Assembly: GCA_958349075.1 (NCBI GenBank)
Contig: CATWBR010000042.1
Coordinates: 1 to 15,911, forward strand
DNA length: 15,911 bases
Direction: 5' to 3'
Origin: an uncultured Clostridium sp.
Lineage (GTDB): Bacteria > Bacillota > Clostridia > Lachnospirales > Lachnospiraceae
Under the pieces are notes generated by a model. It saw only the letters and a program-made list of their open reading frames with translations, was not told where the DNA came from and ran no database searches. Shown here piece by piece: positions 1 to 15,769 of the stretch (position 1 is its first letter; each line of letters opens with the position of its first letter). A program made the translations under genes and the position numbers.

Positions 1-1016
1 GTGCAATGGTGCTTTCCATGACAGCCTGCGGCGGACAGAAAGCAGCCGAAACAACGGCGGCTCCGGCAGAGTCCACAGCAGAAGCGGCTGCAGATGCAGT
101 GACGGAGGCAGTTTCAGAGGCAGCAAAAGAGGGGAATTACACAATCGGTTTTTCTCCATACACACTGACAAACGAATACTTCACCGCAGTATTAACAGGT
201 GTTCAGACAGCATGTGAGGAACTGGGATGCGAGCTGATTTACTTTGACCCGCAGAATGACCCAACCAAACAGGCATCCCAGATTGACGATATGATTGCAA
301 GCGGAATTAATGCACTGGTGTACATCCCATACGATTCCGCAGGAGCACAGACCGTACTTCAGACATGTAAAGATGCAGGCGTAAAGGTTATCAACGTAGA
401 CAATGTCATTCAGGAAGAAGATTACGAACTGGTAGACGGAATCATCGCTTCCGACAATACACAGCTTGGGTATCTTTCCGGACAGTGGGTTGCAGAGCAT
501 CATCCGGACGGAGCCAACGTTCTTATCGTTCATCTTCAGACAGCGGAATCCTGCATTATCAACGTAGACGGATTCTGGAAGGGAATTAAAGAAAACGTAG
601 AGAATCCGGATGCTTTTGTAGAAGTTCAGGTAGTGGAAGGCAAAGGTGCTACAGACGCAGCATTTGAAGTTGTATCAGACGCCCTTCAGGCTCATGACAA
701 CATCGACGTAATCTACGCAATCAACGATACATCCGCTTTAGGCGCAGTACAGGCAGTGGAAGAAGCAGGCAAGACAGGAACTATCGATATTCTGGGCAAA
801 GACGGCGCTCCAATCGGAAAACATGCCATCAAAGACGGCACAATGGTACAGAGCTCCGCTCAGAGACCTACATACATGGGATACATGGGAGTGAAAGAAG
901 CAGTTGATCTCTTAAACGGAAAAGAAATTACATTTAACACAAGCATCGAATCCTACAGCATTACAGCAGACAATATCGACAATTACGATCTTGACGCATG
1001 GGATTCCCTTGACTAA
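1..1016 (+). CDS. Sugar ABC transporter substrate-binding lipoprotein (5' end outside window)
   Basis: Extracytoplasmic binding protein that captures a sugar and delivers it to the permease encoded two genes downstream. The reading frame is open from base 3; no ribosome binding site precedes the first in-window ATG, so the true start lies upstream. The first residues read A-M-V-L-S-M-T-A-C-G-G, the end of a lipoprotein signal peptide with its lipobox Cys. An Ala/Glu/Thr-rich linker of about 30 residues follows, then a periplasmic-binding-protein type I fold (RbsB-like, Peripla_BP_4) beginning near YTIGFSPYTLTNEYF, with typical stretches such as DDMIASGINALVYIP and VIYAINDTSALGAVQA. Genes for the ATPase and permease follow in the same direction, 292 bases away. 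The family is certain; the sugar cannot be read from the sequence, although the downstream kinases suggest a pentose, a deoxyhexose or their keto forms. Confidence 0.93.
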   Translation, partial: AMVLSMTACGGQKAAETTAAPAESTAEAAADAVTEAVSEAAKEGNYTIGFSPYTLTNEYFTAVLTGVQTACEELGCELIYFDPQNDPTKQASQIDDMIASGINALVYIPYDSAGAQTVLQTCKDAGVKVINVDNVIQEEDYELVDGIIASDNTQLGYLSGQWVAEHHPDGANVLIVHLQTAESCIINVDGFWKGIKENVENPDAFVEVQVVEGKGATDAAFEVVSDALQAHDNIDVIYAINDTSALGAVQAVEEAGKTGTIDILGKDGAPIGKHAIKDGTMVQSSAQRPTYMGYMGVKEAVDLLNGKEITFNTSIESYSITADNIDNYDLDAWDSLD

Positions 1017-1090
1017 CCACAGTCAGACAGAGAACGTTTTTGTAACAGGACGACAATGAACAACATAGAATTGGCTGACGTGTAAAACAG

Positions 1091-1139
1091 GTTACCCTTC
1101 AGTGCCGCCTCCTCGGGAGCTGCCGGCCTGAACCGTAAC
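1091..1139 (+). other. Long imperfect hairpin after the binding-protein gene
   Basis: Nested complementary blocks fold into one rod: GTTAC (1091-1095) with GTAAC (1135-1139), TTCAG (1098-1102) with CTGAA (1128-1132), GCCG (1104-1107) with CGGC (1124-1127), and CTCC (1109-1112) with GGAG (1116-1119) around a TCG loop. That makes 18 base pairs interrupted by small internal loops. A short T-run (ATTTTT) comes 7 bases later, so a leaky terminator or a 3'-end protector of the binding-protein message is possible. Structure is seen; function is inferred. Confidence 0.5.
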
Positions 1140-1158
1140 AGCAGATTTTTGATTACGT

Positions 1159-1191
1159 GGTTCGGCTCAAAATAAGATTTTGAGCCGGACC
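1159..1191 (+). terminator. Strong 15-bp hairpin between binding protein and ATPase (attenuator or mRNA stabiliser)
   Basis: The arm GGTTCGGCTCAAAAT (1159-1173) pairs with ATTTTGAGCCGGACC (1177-1191) around an AAG loop; all 15 positions pair if one G-U is allowed. The run that follows is CATTTATTAAG, only moderately T-rich, so full termination is unlikely. Such hairpins between a binding-protein gene and its transporter genes commonly keep the binding-protein message more abundant. The rest of the 292-base gap holds no convincing ORF or promoter. Confidence 0.55.
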
Positions 1192-1308
1192 ATTTATTAA
1201 GTGGCAATGAAAAGTTTGCGAAGCGTGCTTTTCGTTGTTTCATAAGGAAGAGAATTTCAAAAGAGGTCACGTGCAGATATAAACATTCCAGGGAATACGA
1301 GGTAGCAT

Positions 1309-2802
1309 ATGGGCGAAACAAAACTCTTACAGATGCAGAATATAACAAAAGCATTTGCTTCAAACGTGGTACTGACCGGTGTAAACCTCTCTGTCGGAGA
1401 AGGGGAAGTGGTAGCCATCCTCGGTGAAAACGGAGCCGGTAAGTCAACCTTAATCAAGATACTGGGCGGAATCTATAAAGCGGATTCCGGCGAAATACAT
1501 ATAAACGGAGAATTGAAAAATATACATTCTGCCGCTGTGGCAGGGGCGAACGGAATCAGAATCATCCATCAGGAAATCATTCTGGTGCCGGCCAGGACAA
1601 TTGCGGCGAATGTTTTTATGGGGCGTGAGCTCAAAGATAAATTCGGGCTTGTAGATGCAAAACGGATGGAGGAGGAGACGCAGAAGGTCATAGACGATCT
1701 GCACTTAAACCTCCGGGCGTCTCAACTGGTGGAGGACTTATCCATCGGAATGCAGCAGCTTGTGGAGATTATCAAGGCCGTGTCGGCCGAGGCCAGAATC
1801 GTTGTCATGGATGAACCGACCTCCTCCCTGTCACAGGGTGAGGTGGAAACGCTGTTTGACATTATCAGGCTGCTGAAGAAAAAAGGAGTGGGAATCATCT
1901 ACATTTCCCACAGGCTGGAAGAACTCTTTACCATTACAGACCGGATCGTGGTCCTGCGTGACGGCAAGATGATCGGCGACGTTCCGACGCCCGAGGCGGA
2001 CAAGGATGAGCTGATCAAGATGATGGTAGGCCGCGAACTGAGCAGTTACTATACGAGAAACAAACATGAGATCAAGGGAACCTCCCTTGAAGTAAAGGGA
2101 CTGGATCATGAGAAGTACTTCAAAGACGTGAATTTCCATGCCAGGTACGGTGAGATTGTCGGTTTCGCAGGTCTTGTCGGGGCCAGAAGAACGGAACTGA
2201 TGAAGACCATATTCGGAGCTTACCAGAAATCCGGCGGCGAGATTTTCCTGGATGGTAAAAAGCTGGAAATCCGGCGGCCGCAGGATGCTATCGACAATGG
2301 TATCGTCTATGTCTCGGAGGACAGAAGGGACGAGGGACTGATTCTTAAAAATGATGTAAAGTTCAACATGGGCCTTGTCTGTCTCAGTGATTTTATAAAG
2401 GGAGTCGGTGTAAAACAGGCGGACTGGGATAAGATGGTGGAGGATTACAGAAAGAAATTTTCCATCAAAATCACCTCAGCCAGACAATTAACCGGCAATT
2501 TAAGCGGCGGAAACCAGCAGAAGGTAGTTTTGAGTAAATGGCTGGCCAAAAATCCGAAGGTCATTATTCTGGATGAGCCGACAAGGGGCATCGACGTAGG
2601 TTCCAAGGCCGAAATATACGCCATCATCGATGAGCTGGCGGCAAACGGCGTTTCGATTATTATGGTTTCTTCGGAACTCCCGGAGATTATCAATATGTGC
2701 AACAGGTGCTATGTCATGTGCGAGGGAAGAATCACCGGAGAACTGTCCGAGGAAGAATTTTCCCAGGAATCCATGATGACGTATGCAACAAACAGAGAAT
2801 AA
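1309..2802 (+). CDS. Sugar ABC transporter ATP-binding protein, tandem NBDs (RbsA/MglA type)
   Basis: Cytoplasmic motor of the importer; hydrolyses ATP to drive sugar through the permease. Two fused nucleotide-binding domains are visible. The N-terminal one has Walker A GENGAGKST (residues 39-47), Q-loop region RIIHQE, signature LSIGMQQ and Walker B IVVMDEPTS. The C-terminal one begins near residue 255 and has the altered Walker A GLVGARRTE typical of the second half of RbsA-like proteins, signature LSGGNQQ and Walker B VIILDEPTRGID. Length (497 aa) matches the family. The ATG at 1309 is preceded by GAGGT at 1299-1303, five bases away, a modest site. The gene ends 22 bases before the permease start, so the two are co-transcribed. 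The substrate is not deducible from this subunit. Confidence 0.95.
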   Translation: MGETKLLQMQNITKAFASNVVLTGVNLSVGEGEVVAILGENGAGKSTLIKILGGIYKADSGEIHINGELKNIHSAAVAGANGIRIIHQEIILVPARTIAANVFMGRELKDKFGLVDAKRMEEETQKVIDDLHLNLRASQLVEDLSIGMQQLVEIIKAVSAEARIVVMDEPTSSLSQGEVETLFDIIRLLKKKGVGIIYISHRLEELFTITDRIVVLRDGKMIGDVPTPEADKDELIKMMVGRELSSYYTRNKHEIKGTSLEVKGLDHEKYFKDVNFHARYGEIVGFAGLVGARRTELMKTIFGAYQKSGGEIFLDGKKLEIRRPQDAIDNGIVYVSEDRRDEGLILKNDVKFNMGLVCLSDFIKGVGVKQADWDKMVEDYRKKFSIKITSARQLTGNLSGGNQQKVVLSKWLAKNPKVIILDEPTRGIDVGSKAEIYAIIDELAANGVSIIMVSSELPEIINMCNRCYVMCEGRITGELSEEEFSQESMMTYATNRE

Positions 2803-2824
2803 GGAAATTTTAGGAGGTACAACT

Positions 2825-3802
2825 ATGGAAAAGAAGAAGGAACTGGGAGTTCCATTCACAGGCTCTGCTTATCTGAAGCGTAATATCGGAACGATCATCG
2901 GTCTGATCCTGCTTATTATAATCGTTTCGGTTTCAACACCGAAGTTTATGACGTCATCAAACCTTTTAAACCTTTTAAAATCCAACTCGGTTAACGCAAT
3001 CATCTGCTGCGGCATGCTGCTTGCGATTCTGATGGGTGAGATTGATATTTCCGTCGGTTCCACCGTCGGCCTGACGGGCGTTATCGGTGCATATATGATT
3101 ACCAACTTAAACGCACCGGTATGGGTAACCGTAATAAGCTGTCTGGCAGTGGGTGCCCTGGTGGGAACGATCAACGGTTTTGCCATCGCTTATCTGCAGG
3201 TACCCGCTTTTGTCGCCACGCTGGCGACGCAGTGTATCGGCCGCGGACTGACCGAGATTATCTCGGGCGGCGTGACAATCCGTGTGCGCAATGCCACATA
3301 TACGGGACTTGGCAATACGAGCCTTGGCGGAGTGTCGGTCATCATTGTTTATGCGGCCGTTATCCTGATTGCGACCTGGATTCTGTTAAATAAGACACGG
3401 TTTGGGTACTATATTTATGCGCTGGGCGGCAACAAGACGGCGGCTAAATACTCCGGCGTCAATGTGAAAAAATACAACATGCTTCCCTACGTTCTCATCG
3501 GCCTGCTCTGCGGCGTGGGCGGAATCGTATGGTCGGCCCGTCTCGGTTCGGCAGCTGCGACGCTCGGCAACGGATTTGAAATGGATGCCATTGCGGCCGT
3601 TGTAATCGGCGGAACCAGCATGTCGGGCGGCGTAGGAACCGTGGGCGGCACCTTTATCGGTATTCTGATCATCGGCGTTATCACAAACGGCCTGAACCTG
3701 ATGGGAATCAACTCCTTCTGGCAGGGCGTATTCAAGGGGATCATTATCATGGTAGCCGTGGTCATCGACGTATTCAAGAAGAGCCGTTCCAAACAGCAGT
3801 AA
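2825..3802 (+). CDS. Sugar ABC transporter permease (RbsC type)
   Basis: Integral membrane channel of the importer. The 325-aa product is almost wholly hydrophobic, with about eight to ten membrane segments starting at NIGTIIGLILLIIIVSVS. It carries family hallmarks: GEIDISVGS after the second segment, and AIAAVVIGGTSMSGGVGTVGG in the C-terminal half, the loop region contacting the ATPase. An upstream in-frame ATG at 2783 overlaps the ATPase gene; the ATG at 2825 is preferred because AGGAGG sits at 2812-2817, seven bases ahead, and the protein then begins MEKKKELG like its relatives. Only one permease gene is present, so the channel is probably a homodimer, unlike rhamnose importers with two permeases. 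Confidence 0.94.
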   Translation: MEKKKELGVPFTGSAYLKRNIGTIIGLILLIIIVSVSTPKFMTSSNLLNLLKSNSVNAIICCGMLLAILMGEIDISVGSTVGLTGVIGAYMITNLNAPVWVTVISCLAVGALVGTINGFAIAYLQVPAFVATLATQCIGRGLTEIISGGVTIRVRNATYTGLGNTSLGGVSVIIVYAAVILIATWILLNKTRFGYYIYALGGNKTAAKYSGVNVKKYNMLPYVLIGLLCGVGGIVWSARLGSAAATLGNGFEMDAIAAVVIGGTSMSGGVGTVGGTFIGILIIGVITNGLNLMGINSFWQGVFKGIIIMVAVVIDVFKKSRSKQQ

Positions 3803-3838
3803 AAAAGAAATAGAAAGCTATTTTTCAAAGGAGATACT

Positions 3839-5326
3839 ATGGCATTTGCAGGACTGGATGTCGGAACCAGCGGAAGTAAGATGCTGGTCTATGATCTGGA
3901 TGGAAACGTACTTTTTACAGCTTCCAGAAAATATGAGGAGCTGGGAGGCGGCGGGCACAGGGAACTGAACCCGGAGACCGTCATGAAATATGTAAAACAG
4001 GTGCTCCGTGAAGTGGGAGAGCGCTGTCCTGAAAAGATAGAGGCCATGGCCGTTACAAGCCTTGGAGAATCCGTGGTCTGCCTTGACAAAGAGGGAAAAG
4101 CCCTGGCCAATTCCATGCTGACGGGCGATTCCAGAGGAATTAAAGAGACAGAAGAAATTATAGAAAAAATGGGGGCACAGCGGATTTTTGAAATTACCGG
4201 CCTCCCTCCCAACGAGCTCTACGGCCTTCCCAAGTACATGTGGCTGAACCGGAATACGGACGCGGTAAAAAAGGCGGATGCCATCCTCTATTATGAGGAC
4301 TTTGTGGGATACATGCTGACCGGAAAACGGATGGTCAGTTATTCCTCCGCAGCCCGGAGCATGGCGTTCGACATCAGGAAGATGGACTGGTCAGAAGAGC
4401 TTCTGAGTCTTGCTGTAATCTGGAAAGAACTTTTTTCAACGCGGGTAAAGCCCTGTACCGTGATTGGCACGATACTTCCCGATGCTGCTAAGGAGCTTCA
4501 TTTAAATCCCGATATGAAACTGGTGGCCGGAGGCCACGACCAGAGCTGCGCAGCCCTTGGAAGCGGCCTTTGCGGGGCAGAGGCGGGAGAATGCGGGATG
4601 GGAACGTGCGAGTTCCTGTTCACAATGCTGCCAGGTGCCATGATGACCCCTTATATGATAGACAATGATTTTACCTGTATCCCCTATATCCTGCCGGGTA
4701 CTTATCTCTCAAGCCTGGAGGTAACGACCTGCGGAGCGCTCAAAAACTGGGCGAGGGACAGCATTTTAAAAGGATTTAAGATGGAGTGCGATGCGCGGGG
4801 AGAAAATTTCTATTCCGGCATCGACAGAGCCGTAAAGGATATCCGGACGGACGTCATGGTGCTTCCGCAGTTCGGGTCGTCCGGAAACCCGGATCTTTCG
4901 ATGGATGCCAGAGGAACCATAACCGGCCTTACCATCCATACGAAGGCGGAGGAGATCTACCGGGCGATTCTGGAGGGAATGGCGTTTCAGATGTACCTGT
5001 CCTATGAACGCCTCAAAACACTGGGGACAAAGATGAACCGCATTGTGGCGACGGGAGGAGGCGCAGCCTCCGAACTGACTCTTCAGATCCGGGCCGATAT
5101 ATTTAACATGAAGGTTCTTTCACTGGAAAATGAAGAATCGGGAACCGTGGGATGTATGCTGATGGCCGCGGCCGGTACGGGCGCCTACACTTCCCTGGAA
5201 GAAGGAATCAGAAGGGCCGTAAAGATCAGAAAAGAATTTTTACCTGATCCCGCCATGCATGAGTACTATATGGAAAAATTCGCGAAATATAAAGTCCTGT
5301 ACGAAAGAATGTATGACTTCAGGTGA
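3839..5326 (+). CDS. FGGY-family carbohydrate kinase, substrate unknown
   Basis: ATP-dependent sugar kinase of the FGGY family (xylulokinase/rhamnulokinase/glycerol kinase fold). It is 495 aa, the usual size. The N-terminal ATPase-fold motif is GLDVGTSGSKM (residues 5-15); the second domain has GGHDQSCAALGSG with the probable catalytic base Asp234, and the C-terminal lobe has ATGGGAASELTLQIRADI. It differs from the two downstream FGGY kinases: the region after the first domain reads VTSLGESVVCLD where xylulokinases have a GQMH motif, so it is neither a clear XylB nor a RhaB. The start has AAAGGAG at 3827-3833, five bases ahead. It lies 36 bases after the permease and 46 bases before an FbaA-type aldolase, suggesting it primes the imported sugar for that aldolase. 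Substrate and phosphorylated position are unknown. Confidence 0.88.
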   Translation: MAFAGLDVGTSGSKMLVYDLDGNVLFTASRKYEELGGGGHRELNPETVMKYVKQVLREVGERCPEKIEAMAVTSLGESVVCLDKEGKALANSMLTGDSRGIKETEEIIEKMGAQRIFEITGLPPNELYGLPKYMWLNRNTDAVKKADAILYYEDFVGYMLTGKRMVSYSSAARSMAFDIRKMDWSEELLSLAVIWKELFSTRVKPCTVIGTILPDAAKELHLNPDMKLVAGGHDQSCAALGSGLCGAEAGECGMGTCEFLFTMLPGAMMTPYMIDNDFTCIPYILPGTYLSSLEVTTCGALKNWARDSILKGFKMECDARGENFYSGIDRAVKDIRTDVMVLPQFGSSGNPDLSMDARGTITGLTIHTKAEEIYRAILEGMAFQMYLSYERLKTLGTKMNRIVATGGGAASELTLQIRADIFNMKVLSLENEESGTVGCMLMAAAGTGAYTSLEEGIRRAVKIRKEFLPDPAMHEYYMEKFAKYKVLYERMYDFR

Positions 5327-5359
5327 TTACTGAAAAATGAACTAAGTGAAAGAAAAGAT

Positions 5360-5375
5360 GGAGGAGAGAATTATG
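5360..5375 (+). promoter_or_regulatory. Ribosome binding site that fixes the aldolase start
   Basis: GGAGGAG at 5360-5366 lies six bases before the ATG at 5373-5375. An upstream in-frame GTG at 5346 would add nine residues (mostly Lys, Glu and Met) but has no such site, so the ATG is preferred. Confidence 0.8.
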
Positions 5376-6209
5376 AAGCTTGTAAATGGTTTTGACCTTA
5401 TGGAATTTGCCAAGAAATATCATCACGTATTACCGGCGTTTAACACGACCAACCTGGAAATGACTTATGCGATCGCGAGAGGACTGCAGGAGGCCGATCT
5501 GCCTGGATATATTCAGATATCCTCCAACAACCTGCGGCTTTCCAACCCGCGCGTCATTGCCATGATTGCACAGGATGCAGTTAAGAATTCGGATACGCCG
5601 ATCGGCCTTCACCTGGATCACGGCAAGTCTTTTGAAGATGTAAAGGCCTGTGTGGATGCAGGATTTACCTCCATCATGATTGACGCTTCCCACCTTCCGT
5701 TCGAGGAAAATGTAAAAGAGTGCCGCCGCGCCGCCGAATACTGCCATTTCTACGGTATTCCGGTGGAGGCTGAGCTGGGCGCTCTCCAGGGAAAGGAAGA
5801 GGATGTGGTAAATGAGGCGGAGTGCAAGACCGATCCGGCCATGGTGGCTGATTTCGTGGAACAGACGGGCTGCGATACCCTGGCAGTATCCGTAGGCAAT
5901 GTCCACGGCCTGTGCCTGAATCCCCAGATTGATATTCCTCTGCTGGCAAAAATAAATGAGGTATCCTCCGTTCCGCTGGTACTTCACGGCGGTTCCGGAA
6001 TCCCGAAGGAGGTAATCTGGGAGGCCAAGAAACACGGCCTGATTAAGATTAACTACGGTTCGGATTTGAGAAAAGAATACATACGCACATTTGGCGAGGC
6101 TTATGAGACGAACCACAATGAGCACGACGTAATTCATCTGAGCGTTGAATCAGTTGAGAATGTAAGCAGAAAGGCCAGGGAACTGGTCACGATGATTAAC
6201 GAAAACTAA
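5373..6209 (+). CDS. Class II (metal-dependent) ketose-phosphate aldolase, FbaA/GatY family
   Basis: Reversible aldol cleavage of a phosphorylated ketose to dihydroxyacetone phosphate and an aldehyde; Zn2+-dependent, cytoplasmic. The 278-aa TIM-barrel protein shows the expected residues: HLDHG with Asp82 and metal ligand His83, GNVHG with His178, LHGGSG with His205, and the phosphate loop INYGSD from about residue 226. The last differs from the NxxTD form usual in fructose/tagatose bisphosphate aldolases. Fructose-bisphosphate aldolase is a possible automatic call, but the position inside a sugar operon next to FGGY kinases argues for a dedicated catabolic substrate, perhaps a ketose 1-phosphate (inference). 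It follows the unknown FGGY kinase by 46 bases and precedes the xylulokinase-like gene by 66. Confidence 0.88.
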   Translation: MKLVNGFDLMEFAKKYHHVLPAFNTTNLEMTYAIARGLQEADLPGYIQISSNNLRLSNPRVIAMIAQDAVKNSDTPIGLHLDHGKSFEDVKACVDAGFTSIMIDASHLPFEENVKECRRAAEYCHFYGIPVEAELGALQGKEEDVVNEAECKTDPAMVADFVEQTGCDTLAVSVGNVHGLCLNPQIDIPLLAKINEVSSVPLVLHGGSGIPKEVIWEAKKHGLIKINYGSDLRKEYIRTFGEAYETNHNEHDVIHLSVESVENVSRKARELVTMINEN

Positions 6210-6214
6210 TCATT

Positions 6215-6254
6215 TGACGGCGGTGAGAGACGGGCAGATGCTCCCCCGCCGTCA
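6215..6254 (+). other. Hairpin in the aldolase-xylulokinase gap
   Basis: TGACGGCGG (6215-6223) and CCGCCGTCA (6246-6254) are perfect 9-bp complements, with an inner GGG/CCC pairing possible. No T-run follows, so this is not a canonical terminator. It lies just before the ribosome binding site AAGGTGG (6261-6267) of the next gene and could stabilise the upstream message or modulate downstream translation. Confidence 0.5.
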
Positions 6255-6275
6255 TCCGTAAAGGTGGATTGCAGT

Positions 6276-7772
6276 ATGGAACAAACAAAACAGACATTTT
6301 TAGGCATAGATTTAGGAACCTCTGCAATGAAGCTGGTACTGATAGACGAAAATAAAAATGTGCTGGCACAGATTACGGAGGAATATCAGGCGGCCCAGCC
6401 GGAGAGAGGCTTCAGTGAAATCGATCCGGAGATTTGGTACGATTGTATGATGAGCGCCATGGAACGGATTTTTAAGAAGTGTGACCGGAGCCTGATCAGA
6501 GGGATTGGAGTGACGGGCCAGATGCATACGCTGGCTGTTCTGGACGGGGAAGGGAAATCGGTCCGGCCTGCGCTGATGTGGAATGATATCAGAACTAAGG
6601 ATTTAATCCCGGAACTCAAGGAGCGGATCAGGGATTTTCCGGAGGGAGAATATCTGGCCAGAACCATTTCCACCGGAAGTCCGGCGGCCAATCTATACTG
6701 GCTGAAGGAGAATGAGCCTGAAAATTTTAAGAAAATCAAAAAATTCCTGATCGGTCCGGACTATCTCGTATACCGCCTGACCGGGCACTGCGGAACGGAT
6801 TACTGCGAGGCATCCACGTCCTGTCTCTACCAGATCAAAGAGCGGAAATGGTCGCCCGAAATGCGGGATCTAATAGGCCTTGAGGAGGAGCTGTACCCGG
6901 AGGTGCGGGGCAGCGTCCTTGCGGCCGGGACGCTGACGGAAGAAATTGCGGAGCGTTTTTCCCTGAGCCGGCGGATAGACGTGCTGACCGGGACGGGAGA
7001 CAATCCCGCGACGGCTATTTCCACGGGCTGCCTGGGCCGGGGCTATCCCGTGATTTCCCTGGGAACATCGGGCGTATTCATGATGCCGGTGGCGGAAATA
7101 AAGGACAATTCAAAGGGGAAGATGATTCTTTTTTCCTTTGACGACAAGAGCTATTCCTACCTGATCCAGGGAGCCGTGCAGTCCAACGGAAGTACGTTTG
7201 ACTGGTGGGTGCGGGGAATCATGGAGGCGGATTTTTCCGAGGTGGACTGTCTGGTGGATGTGGAGAAATCTTCCGGGAGCGGTGTGCTTTTCTATCCTCA
7301 TTTAATGGGGGAAAAGACACTCTATGCGGATCCTGACATCAGGGGTTCGTTTATCGGCCTGAGCACGGAGACGGACCGCTCCGATATGCTGTATGCAGTG
7401 ATTGAGGGACTCTGCTTCAGCTTTCGGGAACTGGCCGAGAAGATGCGCCTTCCCCTGTGCCGGTTCGGCAGTGTGAAAGTAGTGGGCGGAGGCGCGAGGA
7501 GCCGGGTTTGGATGCAGACCCTGGCCAATGTGCTGAATATCCGCATCGAGCAGATGGACGGAATGATAGGGCCGGCCTTTGGCATCGCCCTTCTGGCGGC
7601 ATACCACTGCGGCTGTTTTGACTCCCTGGAGCAGATATCGGAGGGGACGGTAAAAATCCAGAACTGTTTTGAGCCCCAGCCGGAAGCGGCAGCGGTCTGT
7701 AACGAGCAGTACGGTAAGTATCTTAGGATTCAAAAAGGGCTGCAGTACATAACAGAGGGGACTGAGGATTAG
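6276..7772 (+). CDS. xylB: Xylulokinase-like FGGY kinase
   Basis: Expected reaction: D-xylulose + ATP to D-xylulose 5-phosphate, feeding the pentose phosphate pathway. The 498-aa protein has GIDLGTSAMK near its N-terminus, then GVTGQMHTLAVLD and ALMWNDIR, the xylulokinase signature around the sugar site. TGTGDNPATA contains the likely catalytic Asp242; SLGTSGVFM and VVGGGARSRVWMQ complete the ATP and sugar lobes. The ATG at 6276 is chosen over an in-frame GTG at 6264 because AAGGTGG lies eight bases before the ATG. Related kinases act on other ketoses, so the substrate is likely but not certain. No xylose isomerase is nearby. The next gene is 194 bases away, an unusually wide gap holding a large hairpin. 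Confidence 0.85.
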   Translation: MEQTKQTFLGIDLGTSAMKLVLIDENKNVLAQITEEYQAAQPERGFSEIDPEIWYDCMMSAMERIFKKCDRSLIRGIGVTGQMHTLAVLDGEGKSVRPALMWNDIRTKDLIPELKERIRDFPEGEYLARTISTGSPAANLYWLKENEPENFKKIKKFLIGPDYLVYRLTGHCGTDYCEASTSCLYQIKERKWSPEMRDLIGLEEELYPEVRGSVLAAGTLTEEIAERFSLSRRIDVLTGTGDNPATAISTGCLGRGYPVISLGTSGVFMMPVAEIKDNSKGKMILFSFDDKSYSYLIQGAVQSNGSTFDWWVRGIMEADFSEVDCLVDVEKSSGSGVLFYPHLMGEKTLYADPDIRGSFIGLSTETDRSDMLYAVIEGLCFSFRELAEKMRLPLCRFGSVKVVGGGARSRVWMQTLANVLNIRIEQMDGMIGPAFGIALLAAYHCGCFDSLEQISEGTVKIQNCFEPQPEAAAVCNEQYGKYLRIQKGLQYITEGTED

Positions 7773-7825
7773 AGCGCAGAAGCGCGGCAGAGGATAGAAT
7801 GCGGTGTGGCGCCGGTGAACGCGCT

Positions 7826-7876
7826 CCATGCCGGGAGTGAGGCCGGTCGGGATGACCGGCCTCTTTGCCGGTACGG
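7826..7876 (+). terminator. Large GC-rich hairpin between xylB-like gene and rhaB
   Basis: The upper stem is GAGGCCGGTC (7839-7848) with GACCGGCCTC (7854-7863), a perfect 10-bp match around GGGAT, followed by only TTT. A lower stem pairs CCATGCCGG (7826-7834) with CCGGTACGG (7868-7876), with one mismatch and one wobble, across a 4x4 internal loop. Because the T-run is only three bases, I read it as a partial terminator or message-protecting structure. The rest of the 7773-7966 gap has no ORF or recognisable promoter, only a small GCGC-AGAA-GCGC hairpin at 7774-7785. Confidence 0.55.
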
Positions 7877-7966
7877 CGTTTGGCGGCCGGACTGGAGCTG
7901 CAATGAAACGTCTGCTGCGGGAGTTCTGCATGCGGTATGCTCCGCTTATCCGGAAAGGGTGAGAAG

Positions 7967-9403
7967 ATGAAGGAAATAGAGAAGAAATATTACCTGGCGG
8001 TAGACTTTGGCGCGTCCGGGGGCAGGCACATCCTGGCCGACAGGGATGGGGATAAGATCAGAATGCAGGAAGTCTACCGTTTTTCCAACAGCCCCGTGAA
8101 GAGGGAACATATGATGTGCTGGGATATTGAATACCTGACGGAGCAGCTTATGGAAGGTATGAAACGCTGCCGGGATGCAGGGAAAATACCGGCCGGTATG
8201 GGAATCGACACATGGGGATTGGATTATGTGTTTCTGGACAGGGAAGGCCGGATTCTGGGAAATGCTGCAAATCACCGCGACATGAGAACCCGCGGGATAT
8301 ACGGCAGTATATGGGAGAAGATGCCTGAGCAGGAATTATATAAGAGAACGGGAATCCAGACGGCCGAATTCAACACCCTCTGCCAGTTGGCGGCAGACAG
8401 GCGGGACAGGCCGGAGATCCTGCGGAAGGCTTGGTGCATGCTCATGATTCCGGATTACTTTGGCTTCTATCTGACGGGCAGGAGAGTGCAGGAATATACG
8501 AACGCCTCCACAAGCCAGCTCCTCGACCCGGAGAAAAAGGACTGGGACCGGGAGCTGGCCGGAAAGATGGAGATACCGGACCGTCTGCTTTTGCCGGTCA
8601 GTATGCCGGGAGAACGGCTGGGGAGACTGAAAGACGAAGTAAAAGAAAAAGTGGGATTTGACTGTAATGTAATCCTGCCTGCCACCCATGACACGGCTTG
8701 TGCCCTGATGGTTTTGCCGGAATGCGGCGAAGGGGAAACAAGAGCCGTCATCAGTTCCGGGACGTGGTCGCTAATGGGGATGATTACGGAGAAACCGGTT
8801 ATCTGCGAAGCGGGAAGACGACTTAAATTTACGAATGAGGGCGGATTCGGGGGAAAGAACCTGCTTCTTAAGAACAGCATGGGACTGTGGATGATACAGA
8901 ATATCAGGAAAGAGACGGCTCCGGGAATGGCGTTTGAGACGCTGTGCGCGGAGGCCATGAGAGCGGATATTGCCTCCTTTGTGGACTGCAACAGCGATGA
9001 ATTCCTGGCTCCGGAGAGCATGGCGGAGGCGGTCGGAGGATTCTGTAAAAGAACGGGGCAGCAGGTACCGGAAACGCCCGGGGAGCTGGCGGCGGTTGTA
9101 TACCGGAGTCTGGCCAAATCCTATGCAGGGATACGCAAAGAACTGGAAACGGTGACCGGAAAGTGCTGCACGTCAATCCACATTGTCGGCGGCGGTTCGA
9201 ACGCCGGCTATCTCAATCAGCTTACGGCCGACTATGCCGGGGTGCCGGTCCTCGCCGGACCGCCGGAAGCTACGGCGGCTGGAAATATCATGGCGCAGAT
9301 GATAGCGGACGGCGTATTTAAGGATCTGAAAGAGGCGCAGGAATGCGCTGTATCATCGTTTGAGATAAAGAGGTACCTGCCGCGGAAGCGGCCGGAAGGA
9401 TAA
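7967..9403 (+). CDS. rhaB: Rhamnulokinase
   Basis: Phosphorylates L-rhamnulose at C1 to L-rhamnulose 1-phosphate in L-rhamnose catabolism. The 478-aa product shows the RhaB-specific run of motifs: AVDFGASGGR (11-20), GIDTWGLDY (from residue 79), HRDMRT, GIQTAEFNTLCQL, MIPDYFGFYLTG, EYTNASTSQLLDP, THDTACAL with the probable catalytic Asp242, SSGTWSLMG, and TNEGGFGGKNLLLKNSMGLW. The ATG at 7967 is preferred to an in-frame ATG at 7937 because the purine-rich AAAGGG site sits about seven bases ahead and the family begins close to this point. The next gene encodes the matching aldolase, 52 bases downstream, which strengthens the call. No rhamnose isomerase (RhaA) or mutarotase lies in the window. 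Confidence 0.95.
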   Translation: MKEIEKKYYLAVDFGASGGRHILADRDGDKIRMQEVYRFSNSPVKREHMMCWDIEYLTEQLMEGMKRCRDAGKIPAGMGIDTWGLDYVFLDREGRILGNAANHRDMRTRGIYGSIWEKMPEQELYKRTGIQTAEFNTLCQLAADRRDRPEILRKAWCMLMIPDYFGFYLTGRRVQEYTNASTSQLLDPEKKDWDRELAGKMEIPDRLLLPVSMPGERLGRLKDEVKEKVGFDCNVILPATHDTACALMVLPECGEGETRAVISSGTWSLMGMITEKPVICEAGRRLKFTNEGGFGGKNLLLKNSMGLWMIQNIRKETAPGMAFETLCAEAMRADIASFVDCNSDEFLAPESMAEAVGGFCKRTGQQVPETPGELAAVVYRSLAKSYAGIRKELETVTGKCCTSIHIVGGGSNAGYLNQLTADYAGVPVLAGPPEATAAGNIMAQMIADGVFKDLKEAQECAVSSFEIKRYLPRKRPEG

Positions 9404-9455
9404 TGTTTTTGAATGGTAAGTATTTTCCGGGAGAACGGGAACAGGAGGAAATAGA

Positions 9456-10283
9456 ATGAAGGTACTGGAAAGCAATGCGGCAAAAGGTTTTATCAGAATG
9501 TCGGATGACGGCTGGAGGCTCGGCTGGCATGAGTGCCATGGCGGGAATTTAAGCTTCCGCCTGACGGAAACGGAAGTGGGTGAGGTGCGGGAGGAACTGA
9601 AAACGGACGGTGCCTGGATCGCCCTCCCGGTGAGTGTCCCGGAACTGTCGGGAGACTTTTTATATGTGACCGGAAGCGGAAAATTCATGCGCAACATGAC
9701 GCTAAACCCGGCCGATTCATTCGGTATGATAGAAATAAGCAAAGACGGCGGTTCCTACCGGATTGTATGGGGACTGTCCGGGGGAGGCCTTCCCACCAGC
9801 GAACTGCCGGCCCATCTGATGAACCAGGCCGTGAAGAAAAGGGTGACGGGAGGAAGATACCGTGTGATTTACCACGCCCATCCGGCCAATATTATCGCTC
9901 TTTCATTTATACTCCCTCTAAAGGATGAGATATTCACAAGGGAGCTTTGGGAGATGGAACCGGAGTGCGCGATGACATTTCCGTCGGGAATGGGCGTGCT
10001 CCCATGGATGGTTCCGGGCACGGCAAAGATAGCGGAGCTGACCTGCACCATGATGGAAGAGTACGATGTGGTGCTATGGGCCCAGCACGGCCTCTTTGCG
10101 GCCGGGGACAGCTTTGACAATACATTCGGCTTAATGCATACCGTGGAAAAAGCAGCGGAGATGCTTATCAAGGTAATGTCCGTGACAAAGGAAAAGCGGC
10201 AGCTCCCGTCGGTGCAGGATTTTAAGGATATGGCAGCGGTGTTCCGGCTGGAACTACCCGGTAAATTCCTTTATGAAAAGTAG
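9456..10283 (+). CDS. rhaD: Rhamnulose-1-phosphate aldolase
   Basis: Zn2+-dependent aldolase of the class II aldolase/adducin fold, splitting L-rhamnulose 1-phosphate into dihydroxyacetone phosphate and L-lactaldehyde. The 275-aa length agrees with the E. coli enzyme (274 aa). Catalytic SELPAH carries Glu116; YHAHP carries His140 and His142; WAQHG carries His211. These sit one position from the E. coli Glu117, His141, His143 and His212 as I recall them, so the active site looks complete. The phosphate-binding regions NLSFRL and VTGSGKF are also present. Start ATG 9456 has AGGAGG at 9443-9448. It is the last gene of the + strand sugar operon, ending 9 bases before the stop codon of a convergent gene. 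No lactaldehyde reductase or dehydrogenase is adjacent. Confidence 0.95.
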   Translation: MKVLESNAAKGFIRMSDDGWRLGWHECHGGNLSFRLTETEVGEVREELKTDGAWIALPVSVPELSGDFLYVTGSGKFMRNMTLNPADSFGMIEISKDGGSYRIVWGLSGGGLPTSELPAHLMNQAVKKRVTGGRYRVIYHAHPANIIALSFILPLKDEIFTRELWEMEPECAMTFPSGMGVLPWMVPGTAKIAELTCTMMEEYDVVLWAQHGLFAAGDSFDNTFGLMHTVEKAAEMLIKVMSVTKEKRQLPSVQDFKDMAAVFRLELPGKFLYEK

Positions 10284-13627: not shown

Positions 13628-13655
13628 TTGACAAATAAGAAAATTATGGTAAAAT
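13628..13655 (+). promoter_or_regulatory. Promoter of the hydrogenase-rubrerythrin gene
   Basis: TTGACA (13628-13633, a perfect -35) is followed after 16 bases by TAAAAT (13650-13655), which is also preceded by TGG, an extended -10. The predicted start point is about 13662, giving a leader of about 58 bases. A 6-bp hairpin GGAAAT/ATTTCC (13680-13700) lies in the leader, and AGGAGG (13710-13715) precedes the ATG at 13721 by five bases. Confidence 0.82.
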
Positions 13656-13675: not shown

Positions 13676-13720
13676 ATTTGGAAATTGCATATTTATTTCC
13701 ATAAATTTCAGGAGGTGTAG

Positions 13721-15769
13721 ATGAATCATTTACCAATGAACGTGCGCGTACCCATTGAGAAAGATAACCCGTCTATCTGCAGAGATGAAGCGCTCTGTAT
13801 TAAATGCGGCCAGTGCAGGGATATCTGTACGGACTATATAGGGGTCCACGGAACTTATACTCTGGAGCAGACAGGAGGAACGGCAGTCTGTATTAACTGC
13901 GGACAGTGCGCCAATGTCTGTCCGGTGTCCAGCATCACGGAGAAATACGAATACCACGATGTTAAAAAAGCGATCCTGGACCCGGAGAAAATCGTGATAT
14001 TCAACACCTCTCCGTCGGTTAGGATTTCACTCGGCGAAGAGTTTGCAATGGAAGACGGAAGTTTTGTCCAGGGAAAGATGGTTGCCCTTCTTCGGAAACT
14101 GGGAGCCTCCTATGTGCTGGATACAAATTTTGCCGCAGATCTTACGATTGTGGAGGAGGCCAGTGAGCTGATTGAACGTATCACGAAGAAGACGAGACCG
14201 CTTCCCCAGTTTACAAGCTGCTGTCCATCCTGGGTAAAATACGCGGAAACCTATCATCCTGATATGCTGCCGCACCTGTCGACGGCCAAAAGCCCGATAG
14301 GGATGCAGGGACCGACGGTCAAGACGTATTTTGCAAAGAAGATGGGGATTGACCCGAAAAAGATTGTCAATGTAGCCGTGACGCCGTGTACCGCAAAGAA
14401 ATTTGAGATTCGCAGGGAAGAGATGAATGCGGCGGCACAGTATCTGGGCATAGATGATATGCGCGATATGGACTACGTCATTACGACCAGGGAACTGGCA
14501 AAGTGGGCGAAAGAAGAGGCTGTTGATTTTGCCGGACTTGAGGATTCCTCCTATGACAGGCTGATGGGTGAAGCATCGGGAGCCGGTGTGATCTTCGGCA
14601 ATACCGGAGGAGTTATGGAAGCAGCCCTGCGGACGGCATATGAATATATTACCGGCGAGAAGGCTCCGGCTGTTCTTTACGATTTGGAGCCGGTGCGGGG
14701 AATGGAGGACGTCAAGGAAGCTCAGATGACCATAAAGGGAATGGAAGTAAATGTAGCCGTTATTTATGGAACGAGAGCAGCCTCACGATTTATTGATAGA
14801 ATAAAGAATGGCGGTAAAGAATATCATTTCATAGAAGTGATGACCTGCCCCGGAGGATGCATCGGAGGAGGAGGACAGCCAAAGGGCACGCTGTTAAAAG
14901 GCGATGAACTGCGGAAAAAGCGGATTGCCGGCCTGTACCGGAAGGACAGCGGCATGGAACTGCGCACCAGCCATGAGAACCGGGAAATCATTGAACTTTA
15001 TAAAGAATTTTACAAGAAACCGCTCAGTGAGCTGGCAGAGCAGATGCTTCATACCGGCTACAGAGACAGAAGTGAAGATTTAGGAGGAAAAAATATGAAC
15101 AGTTCGGTAAAATATCGTTGTACAATCTGTGGATATATCCATGAGGGAGAGCTTCCGGAAGGATTTACCTGTCCGGTGTGTCATCAGCCGGCTTCCGTAT
15201 TTGAGAAGATCGAAGAGAAAGCAGAGAATCCGGAAAATAAATATGCAGGAACCAAGACAGAGAAGAACCTGATGGAAGGTTTTGCAGGCGAGAGCCAGGC
15301 AAGGAATAAGTATACATATTTCGCTATGATTGCCCAGAGAGAGGGCTATGAGCAGTTGGCCGAGATTTTCTTAAAGACAGCCAGAAACGAGCAGGAACAT
15401 GCCAAGCTTTGGTTTGAGGCGCTCGGACATCTGGGAACAACCGCACAGAACCTGCTGGCTGCAGCAGAGGGGGAGAATTACGAATGGACCGATATGTACG
15501 ACCGCTTTGCAAAGGATGCGGACGAGGAAGGTTTCCCGGAGATGGCGGAGCTCTTCAGAAAAGTGGGCGCAATTGAGAAATCCCATGAGGAGCGTTACCG
15601 TAAGCTGCTTCATAATGTTGAGATGCAGCAGGTCTTCGAGAAAGCGGAGGAGAGTATGTGGGAGTGCCGTATCTGCGGACACCTTGTAATTGGAAAGAAA
15701 GCTCCGGAAGTATGTCCGGTCTGCAAATATGCTCAGAGTTATTTTGAGATCAGGAAAGAGAACTACTAA
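13721..15769 (+). CDS. [FeFe] hydrogenase fused to rubredoxin/rubrerythrin
   Basis: A 682-aa multidomain redox enzyme, probably cytoplasmic. Residues 20-70 hold two [4Fe-4S] motifs ([11 protein letters not shown], 26-36; [12 protein letters not shown], 57-68). Residues about 90-440 form the H-cluster domain: L1 TSCCPSW (165-171), L2 TPCTAKKFE (221-229), L3 beginning EVMTCPGGC (372-380) and ending GGGGQP; all cluster cysteines are present. The run [20 protein letters not shown] suggests the group B1/B3 type. From Met459 a rubrerythrin follows: rubredoxin-like C467-x2-C470 and C484-x2-C487; ferritin-like diiron domain with Glu524, E557-x2-H560, Glu588 and E619-x2-H622; and a second rubredoxin C649-x2-C652, C665-x2-C668. 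The second part reduces peroxide in known rubrerythrins; electron flow from H2 or ferredoxin is inferred. An in-frame ribosome binding site and ATG lie at the junction. Hydrogenase maturases are not in the window. Confidence 0.93.
15082..15097 (+). promoter_or_regulatory. Internal in-frame ribosome binding site and ATG for a free rubrerythrin
   Basis: AGGAGG (15082-15087) lies seven bases before an ATG at 15095-15097 that is in the same frame as the hydrogenase. Translation from here would give a 224-residue rubredoxin/ferritin-like/rubredoxin protein, a plausible complete rubrerythrin. The site is as good as those of the strongest genes in the window. Confidence 0.75.

Follow-up and report, generated by a model that had tools for sequence, protein, structure and literature searches.

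Two predicted products from one gene: an internal start site at the seam of an [FeFe] hydrogenase-rubrerythrin chimera

The window analyzed here, a stretch of 15,911 nucleotides from an uncultured Clostridium sp. of the Lachnospiraceae, holds a gene in which an [FeFe] hydrogenase is fused to a rubrerythrin, and at the seam between the two halves it carries what could be the start of a second gene, namely AGGAGG at 15082-15087, the 7-nt spacer AAAAAAT at 15088-15094, and an ATG at 15095-15097. Why should a gene that is read as one polypeptide keep a Shine-Dalgarno (SD) sequence and a start codon at that very place? Our reading is that it probably gives rise to two products from one mRNA, the full chimera and a free rubrerythrin, by means of an internal start that has been kept by selection. 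Ribosomes starting at 13721 would make the full hydrogenase-rubrerythrin chimera, other ribosomes starting at the SD and ATG of 15082-15097 would make a complete free rubrerythrin of ~25 kDa, and selection would have retained the second of these starts ever since fusions that took place long ago. Initiation at Met459 in the cell, and with it the presence of the two proteins, is a prediction that we infer from comparing sequences.

The chimera gene and its seam

The features of the gene are the following.

13628..13655, plus strand: promoter-like site TTGACA-16-TAAAAT, 5' of the chimera gene (consensus scan, 11/12)
13710..13715, plus strand: SD of the long product, AGGAGG, with the ATG at 13721-13723
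13721..15769, plus strand: [FeFe] hydrogenase-rubrerythrin chimera gene, 682 aa, long product of ~75 kDa (open reading frame list, Pfam, NCBIfam, 120 listed homologues)
13988..14872, plus strand: H-cluster domain, aa 90-384 (Pfam PF02906, E 2.9e-92)
14903..15070, plus strand: hydrogenase small-subunit domain, aa 395-450 (Pfam PF02256, E 2e-20)
15071..15094, plus strand: linker bearing the internal SD (low model confidence, aa 445-462)
15082..15087, plus strand: internal SD, AGGAGG (sequence, cross-relative comparison)
15095..15097, plus strand: internal start codon ATG, Met459, 7 nt 3' of the internal SD
15095..15769, plus strand: predicted frame of the short product, a complete rubrerythrin of 224 aa, ~25 kDa (NCBIfam NF045767, 259.6 bits, cut-off 200)
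15263..15610, plus strand: diiron rubrerythrin domain, aa 515-630 (Pfam PF02915, E 3.5e-24)
15659..15748, plus strand: C-terminal rubredoxin-like domain, aa 647-676 (Pfam PF21349, 2 stretches in the same protein)

From N to C terminus, the protein shows a 4Fe-4S ferredoxin-like region, the H-cluster domain, the small-subunit domain, a rubredoxin-like domain, the diiron rubrerythrin domain, and a second rubredoxin-like domain. The hydrogenase half belongs to group A (TIGR02512, 469.3 bits, cut-off 405.95; also PF02906), and the rubrerythrin has two rubredoxin-like centers in the same polypeptide (NF045767, PF21349 twice, and PF02915 within one open reading frame). A structure model of the 682-aa chimera (14 sequences, mean pLDDT 62.5) was used only for the low confidence that it assigns to aa 445-462.

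The seam ATG is in the frame of the chimera, as (15095-13721)/3 = 458 makes it the codon of Met459, and the open reading frame 13721-15769 reads through it. A start codon preceded by an SD at normal spacing is therefore found in frame inside the gene, and a preliminary description of this locus was right both in placing AGGAGG and, after a 7-base spacer, an ATG of the hydrogenase frame at the domain junction, and in stating that the hydrogenase tail reads straight through them. Free-standing rubrerythrin homologues begin at the position aligned with Met459. When both strands of the window were searched for AGGAGG-N4-9-ATG, 5 sites were found, whereas shuffled sequences lead one to expect 1.22 and reach 5 in 2 of 200 cases; by our reading of the open reading frame list, four of these sites are gene starts, that at 13721 included, and the fifth is the seam site.

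The same preliminary description had noted a TAG in the +1 frame at 15080-15082, which is in fact at 15081-15083, and had raised the possibility that a single-base sequencing error mimics a fusion. Such an error is ruled out because the 120 listed homologues, of 7,998 scored, cover 93-100% of the query (source names among those listed include [Clostridium] symbiosum, Clostridium transplantifaecale, and Blautia), and because an in-frame hydrogenase fusion to a rubrerythrin of the window's kind occurs in 59 hydrogenase genes at independent loci.

The seam start in relatives and in other fusions

Relatives were drawn from at least 80 loci of named genomes and 97 others (designated by L numbers), some of which repeat the same gene. 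The first 144 loci gave 105 distinct hydrogenase genes, 68 of them with a C-terminal partner of at least 150 aa; the remaining 37, with tails <150 aa, were left out of the seam scan, and among these the rubredoxin-like tails of L029, L132, L133, and L135 are without a seam start site. Sixty-four genes were scored as fused, and as L023, L120, L121, L122, and L124 carry another partner, 59 are chimeras proper. The scan took the nearest ATG up to 12 codons before the first rubredoxin cysteine and only then other start-like codons, so that ATG is partly favored in these counts; L033 and L034 were placed by hand. In the 59 chimeras the seam codon is ATG in 56, GTG in 2, and a non-start codon in 1 (L018). 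With any C-terminal partner of at least 150 aa (n=68), it is ATG in 61 and GTG in 3, the four genes with a non-start codon being L018, L023, L025, and L031. This start lies anywhere between 22 and 95 codons behind a fixed point in the hydrogenase.

The SD core is matched over 4-8 bases in 75 of 77 loci (64 hydrogenase loci and 13 of a second fusion kind described below), with L024 and L127 as the exceptions, and in 67 of these 75 the core is separated from the start by 6, 7, or 9 nt. AAGGAG is the commoner form, and the exact hexamer AGGAGG is not universal. At the protein level, in an alignment of the 120 homologues and the window, the linker varies in length and residues and what recurs is a Met after GG-like or KGE-like residues, which led us to suspect a nucleotide signal anchored to that Met. 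Judged by eye, the seam residue is Met in 119 of the 120 homologues listed and Val in one (P0103), and in P0039, P0040, and P0116 long linker insertions again end in GG with a Met few residues later. Met conservation alone is not decisive, because six of the 23 other Met columns also keep Met in at least 95% of rows; on average these columns keep it in 57%, and replace it mostly by L, V, T, Y, or I.

Some loci depart from the common domain plan. In L033 an extra rubredoxin-like domain lies between hydrogenase and rubrerythrin, and SD and ATG precede the rubrerythrin, not the extra domain. In L100, L102, L120, L121, L122, and L124 the same hydrogenase is joined to a different partner (four rubredoxin-like repeats, an unknown domain flanked by rubredoxins, or a large domain resembling part of glutamate synthase), and an SD with ATG or GTG is mostly present at the seam there too, if weak in L102.

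Searching with the rubrerythrin half brought up a second fusion kind, in which ~170 aa, mostly with a dicluster ferredoxin motif, come before the rubrerythrin, as in Kineothrix alysoides. An in-frame ATG is at its seam in all 17 loci read at the DNA level, that is 13 loci (of which L041 and L042 are near copies) plus L146-L149, which match nearly the whole Kineothrix protein. The ferredoxin motif is shown by 11 of the 13, the others being L047, whose N-terminal part is cut short, and L062, whose N-terminal part is rubredoxin-like. Among 120 listed protein homologues of this kind, the seam residue is Met in 111 and Val or Leu in 3, while 6 fall outside our motif filter (the filter left 53 of 143 hydrogenase and 6 of 120 second-kind proteins unfitted and uncounted). 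In almost all of 73 distinct second-kind linkers, the Glu of the SD is preceded by K, Q, M, T, E, R, L, or V. This preceding residue can be coded as NNG in 97% of the linkers, compared to 49-77% for positions -6 to -12, and in 88% the residue that follows the Glu has a codon beginning with G. The amino acids around the second-kind SD, in other words, follow the bases. One ferredoxin-rubrerythrin fusion (L066) is on a contig labelled as a metagenome-assembled genome of a Methanomethylophilaceae archaeon, for which both transfer and bin contamination are possible.

In a third kind, flavin-reductase-rubrerythrin fusions (L071, L078, L157-L164), an ATG is at the seam in 0 of 10, and an SD-like site of -7 kcal/mol or lower is found in 1 of 10, versus 86% of 64 hydrogenase and 88% of 17 second-kind fusions. 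Likewise without a seam start are L023 and L025, hydrogenase fusions to what we take, by its look, to be a reverse-type rubrerythrin. A start at the seam is therefore neither required by the fold nor automatic upon fusion.

Selection on the signal and the age of the fusions

The internal start looks to be selected at the nucleotide level. SD pairing reaches -7 kcal/mol or lower at 84% of 57 junction starts, and at 24 of 26 when one row per 80%-identity cluster is taken. Of the 1,146 remaining in-frame ATGs in these genes, 6% pair as strongly (Mann-Whitney p 4e-30, with rows that are not independent). Median values are -9.0 kcal/mol at junctions, -3.0 at other in-frame ATGs, and -9.9 at the genes' own starts (n=45). 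The mRNA is also much less folded at the seam site (mean -4.3 kcal/mol) than at other internal ATGs (-13.0). Of 62 rows, 57 were scored, L033 and L034 being among the unscored, and the row of L018 was included with a misplaced codon. With amino acids held fixed and synonymous codons shuffled, the observed pairing of -8.8 compares to -6.7 under the null, and 54 of 57 junctions beat the null mean. The SD glycine is coded by GGA in 51 of the 53 start-bearing genes with glycine there, whereas GGA makes up 28% (689 of 2,430) of the other glycine codons in the hydrogenase parts. This is so even though fourfold sites have come close to saturation (0.31 observed, 0.28 expected; 1,777 pairs <75% identity). 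Furthermore, the SD is set in different codon registers (the 62 hydrogenase loci divide into 52, 9, and 1, the single one being L034, and the 13 second-kind loci into 12 and 1), and therefore different amino acids are encoded at it. On the earlier suggestion to ask whether AGGAGG is conserved beyond codon needs, the answer is that the signal is so conserved, judging by a start codon in 58 of 59 chimeras, the several registers, and the GGA bias, although this holds for the SD in general and not for the exact hexamer, and most single-row synonymous tests are non-significant. The comparison supports the preliminary reading that the gene could give both a tethered and a free rubrerythrin, the two proteins themselves being predicted.

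Several points weigh against selection for a second start. Only 4 of 57 junctions are singly significant at p<0.05 against the synonymous null, the window itself being at p 0.39, and hence the amino acids already force much of the SD. The p-values are overstated because the rows are related. The weak mRNA folding at the seam site is due in part to an A-rich linker. L018, which also lacks the N-terminal rubredoxin part, reads GTA at the seam and has lost the start, yet keeps its SD, while in L024 and L127 a start codon is present and the SD core is matched over fewer than 4 nt. The few seam GTGs prove little, because 27 of the 74 Val codons found at other Met columns are GTG as well. Lastly, in the main-text passages searched of the work on the purified Clostridium perfringens chimera, no internal start, truncation, or short product is mentioned (PMC11926857).

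Two other explanations can be weighed on this evidence. If GG or KGE and the Met were kept as residues of a protein hinge, the SD resemblance would simply follow from the codons; glycine-rich hinges are common in proteins, and the non-significant synonymous test of the window fits with this. The residues at the SD vary, however (GG, KGE, KGD, KE, EE, and RS in L034), those before the second-kind Glu are chemically mixed and still codable as NNG in 97% of linkers, and the SD glycine is GGA in 51 of 53 genes, so that we regard a hinge as extremely improbable. Alternatively, the SD-like stretch might slow ribosomes at the domain border for folding, with no initiation, as its position in the inter-domain linker would allow. 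A pause needs no start codon, however, and an ATG or GTG at the right spacing is present in 58 of 59 chimeras, with the narrow choice of core-to-start gaps given above; folding at the seam is as weak as at a start, and the flavin-reductase fusions, with the same rubrerythrin fold, are without the site. A pause site is, in our opinion, very unlikely.

A further alternative is that SD and ATG are functionless leftovers of an ancestral second gene, and here the history of the fusions matters. Mapped onto the hydrogenase tree, the fused state requires no fewer than 13 changes, and well-supported branches force 6 of these. On the rubrerythrin tree, which includes the four non-rubrerythrin rows L120, L121, L122, and L124, hydrogenase-fused, second-kind, and free rows interleave, with 11, 7, and 10 changes, of which 3, 2, and 3 are forced. 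More than one fusion is likely to have occurred, and losses too, and some fusions could be young. In L048, L051, L055, L059, and L061, which are more distant relatives, hydrogenase and rubrerythrin are two genes parted by a stop, whereas L034, with a much diverged hydrogenase (45% identity), is fused and has AAAAGGAGTTATGATATG at its seam; compared to the split relatives this looks like loss of a stop with the second start kept, the placement of L034 in the tree being unsure due to a long branch. Among 22 closer hydrogenase genes (tails up to 60 aa, >50% identity) no pair divided solely by a stop codon was found: L026 and L032 run out of sequence, and among the rest only L030 precedes a rubrerythrin gene, the downstream match being without the N-terminal rubredoxin-like part. 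The former two-gene operon of the preliminary description is thus partly supported, by the split pairs of L030, L048, L051, L055, L059, and L061, but a pair parted by nothing more than a stop is missing among the 22 closer genes. Directly 3' of a hydrogenase stop, L101 reads like a C-terminal rubrerythrin remnant after deletion, in a lineage that lost its partner.

The split pairs carry an SD before the rubrerythrin gene, and because of this a fusion by stop loss would begin with the signal in place, which speaks for a leftover, as do the possibly young fusions and the 4 of 57 rows that are singly significant. A rubrerythrin clade of 33 hydrogenase-fused rows (SH-aLRT 99), however, suggests an old fusion, and in it the start codon is kept in 32 (30 ATG, 2 GTG; the exception is L018), with L024 and L127 lacking a 4-nt SD core. 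Fourfold sites are near saturation in this clade (0.33 observed, 0.28 expected; 32 genes used, pairs <75% identity), and yet GGA prevails at the SD glycine across the start-bearing genes. The differing registers and the lack of an ATG in all 10 flavin-reductase fusions also argue against a leftover, which we consider unlikely.

Two products and known systems

HydR, a hydrogenase-rubrerythrin chimera, was characterized in 2025 as an H2-dependent H2O2 reductase, the protein of C. perfringens having been purified (PMC11926857). As described, CperHydR has the same domain order as the window protein, with a 4Fe-4S hydrogenase, two rubredoxin centers, and a diiron site, and is one polypeptide, a homodimer by modelling; this comparison is by description (PMC11926857). 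Its rubrerythrin part, made alone, gave a diiron electron paramagnetic resonance signal and was assayed for H2O2 reduction (PMC11926857). The window protein would accordingly be a HydR-type chimera by analogy, H2-dependent H2O2 reduction having been shown for the C. perfringens protein only, which is not named among the 120 homologues listed.

Rubrerythrins work as dimers or larger assemblies, and for this reason free subunits of the predicted short product may pair with tethered ones. Stoichiometry would be a likely use of such pairing, as one hydrogenase could feed several peroxide-reducing sites; free rubrerythrin dimers could also use other donors, and it might be of advantage to an iron-sulfur donor to serve several acceptors. 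Considering rubrerythrin dimerization and the modelled chimera homodimer, a mixed assembly of free and tethered subunits is conceivable, and we propose it tentatively. Work on the chimera reports a 400-mV difference between oligomeric states, and assembly can therefore matter greatly (PMC11926857).

Genes with two in-frame products are known from other systems. Phage endolysins can give two polypeptides from a single gene, which in some cases assemble, in a 1:5 ratio in one, but their short part is a cell-wall binding domain, whereas here it would be an entire redox enzyme, of a kind also encoded by free-standing genes (PMC9430671). In Haloferax volcanii, internal in-frame initiation within cas8b yields the C-terminal subunit Cas11b, as proposed here, although this is a part of an archaeal interference complex and not a redox fusion (PMC11899642). 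SpaO, of a secretion system, comes in short and long isoforms from one gene, with a short-form dimer docking on the long form; it is, however, a structural part and no enzyme, while the start of the chimera also recurs in a second fusion kind (PMC13059759). Neither the chimera nor internal starts as such are new, then, and no report linking the two, or describing recurrence across fusion types, was found in the open-licence literature searched, which leaves most subscription journals outside. What is new is that the internal start recurs in two kinds of fusion and is missing from a third.

If two proteins are made, the native composition, dimer state, and activity of an H2-driven peroxide reductase of gut anaerobes that is described as one polypeptide need re-examination, and such a case would show that a gene fusion need not do away with the free protein. 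With less than even confidence, we suggest a rule of "leaky fusions", by which a rubrerythrin behind an iron-sulfur donor, [FeFe] hydrogenase or dicluster ferredoxin, keeps its own start in separate fusions, so as to form mixed peroxidases whose ratio of electron input to catalytic sites would depend on how strongly ribosomes bind at each of the two starts of a single mRNA; fusions to a flavin reductase lack this start. An SD that shifts its codon register between loci, and yet persists where synonymous sites are almost saturated, could also serve as a sequence test for hidden two-product genes.

A separate internal promoter might instead provide a short rubrerythrin mRNA served by the same SD and ATG. 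There is a weak promoter-like match at 14793-14822 (9/12), but 9/12 is the scan threshold, and the region has 7 promoter-like sites against 3.1 expected. We give this option quite a small chance; the start would be identical either way, and such a promoter would alter the mRNA and leave the claim of two products unaffected.

Directly 3' of the promoter-like site at 13628-13655, and 5' of the chimera gene, a palindromic stretch at 13656-13674 matches a Fur consensus at 15/19 positions and is Fur/PerR-like in appearance. Such an operator is not general upstream of the loci compared, the best being L081 (16/19), with weaker ones in L001, L002, and L082. Further upstream, the window holds a sugar gene cluster at 3-10283, comprising ABC transporter parts by appearance (3-3802) and genes for FGGY kinases, a class II aldolase, a rhamnulokinase-like protein, and rhamnulose-1-phosphate aldolase.
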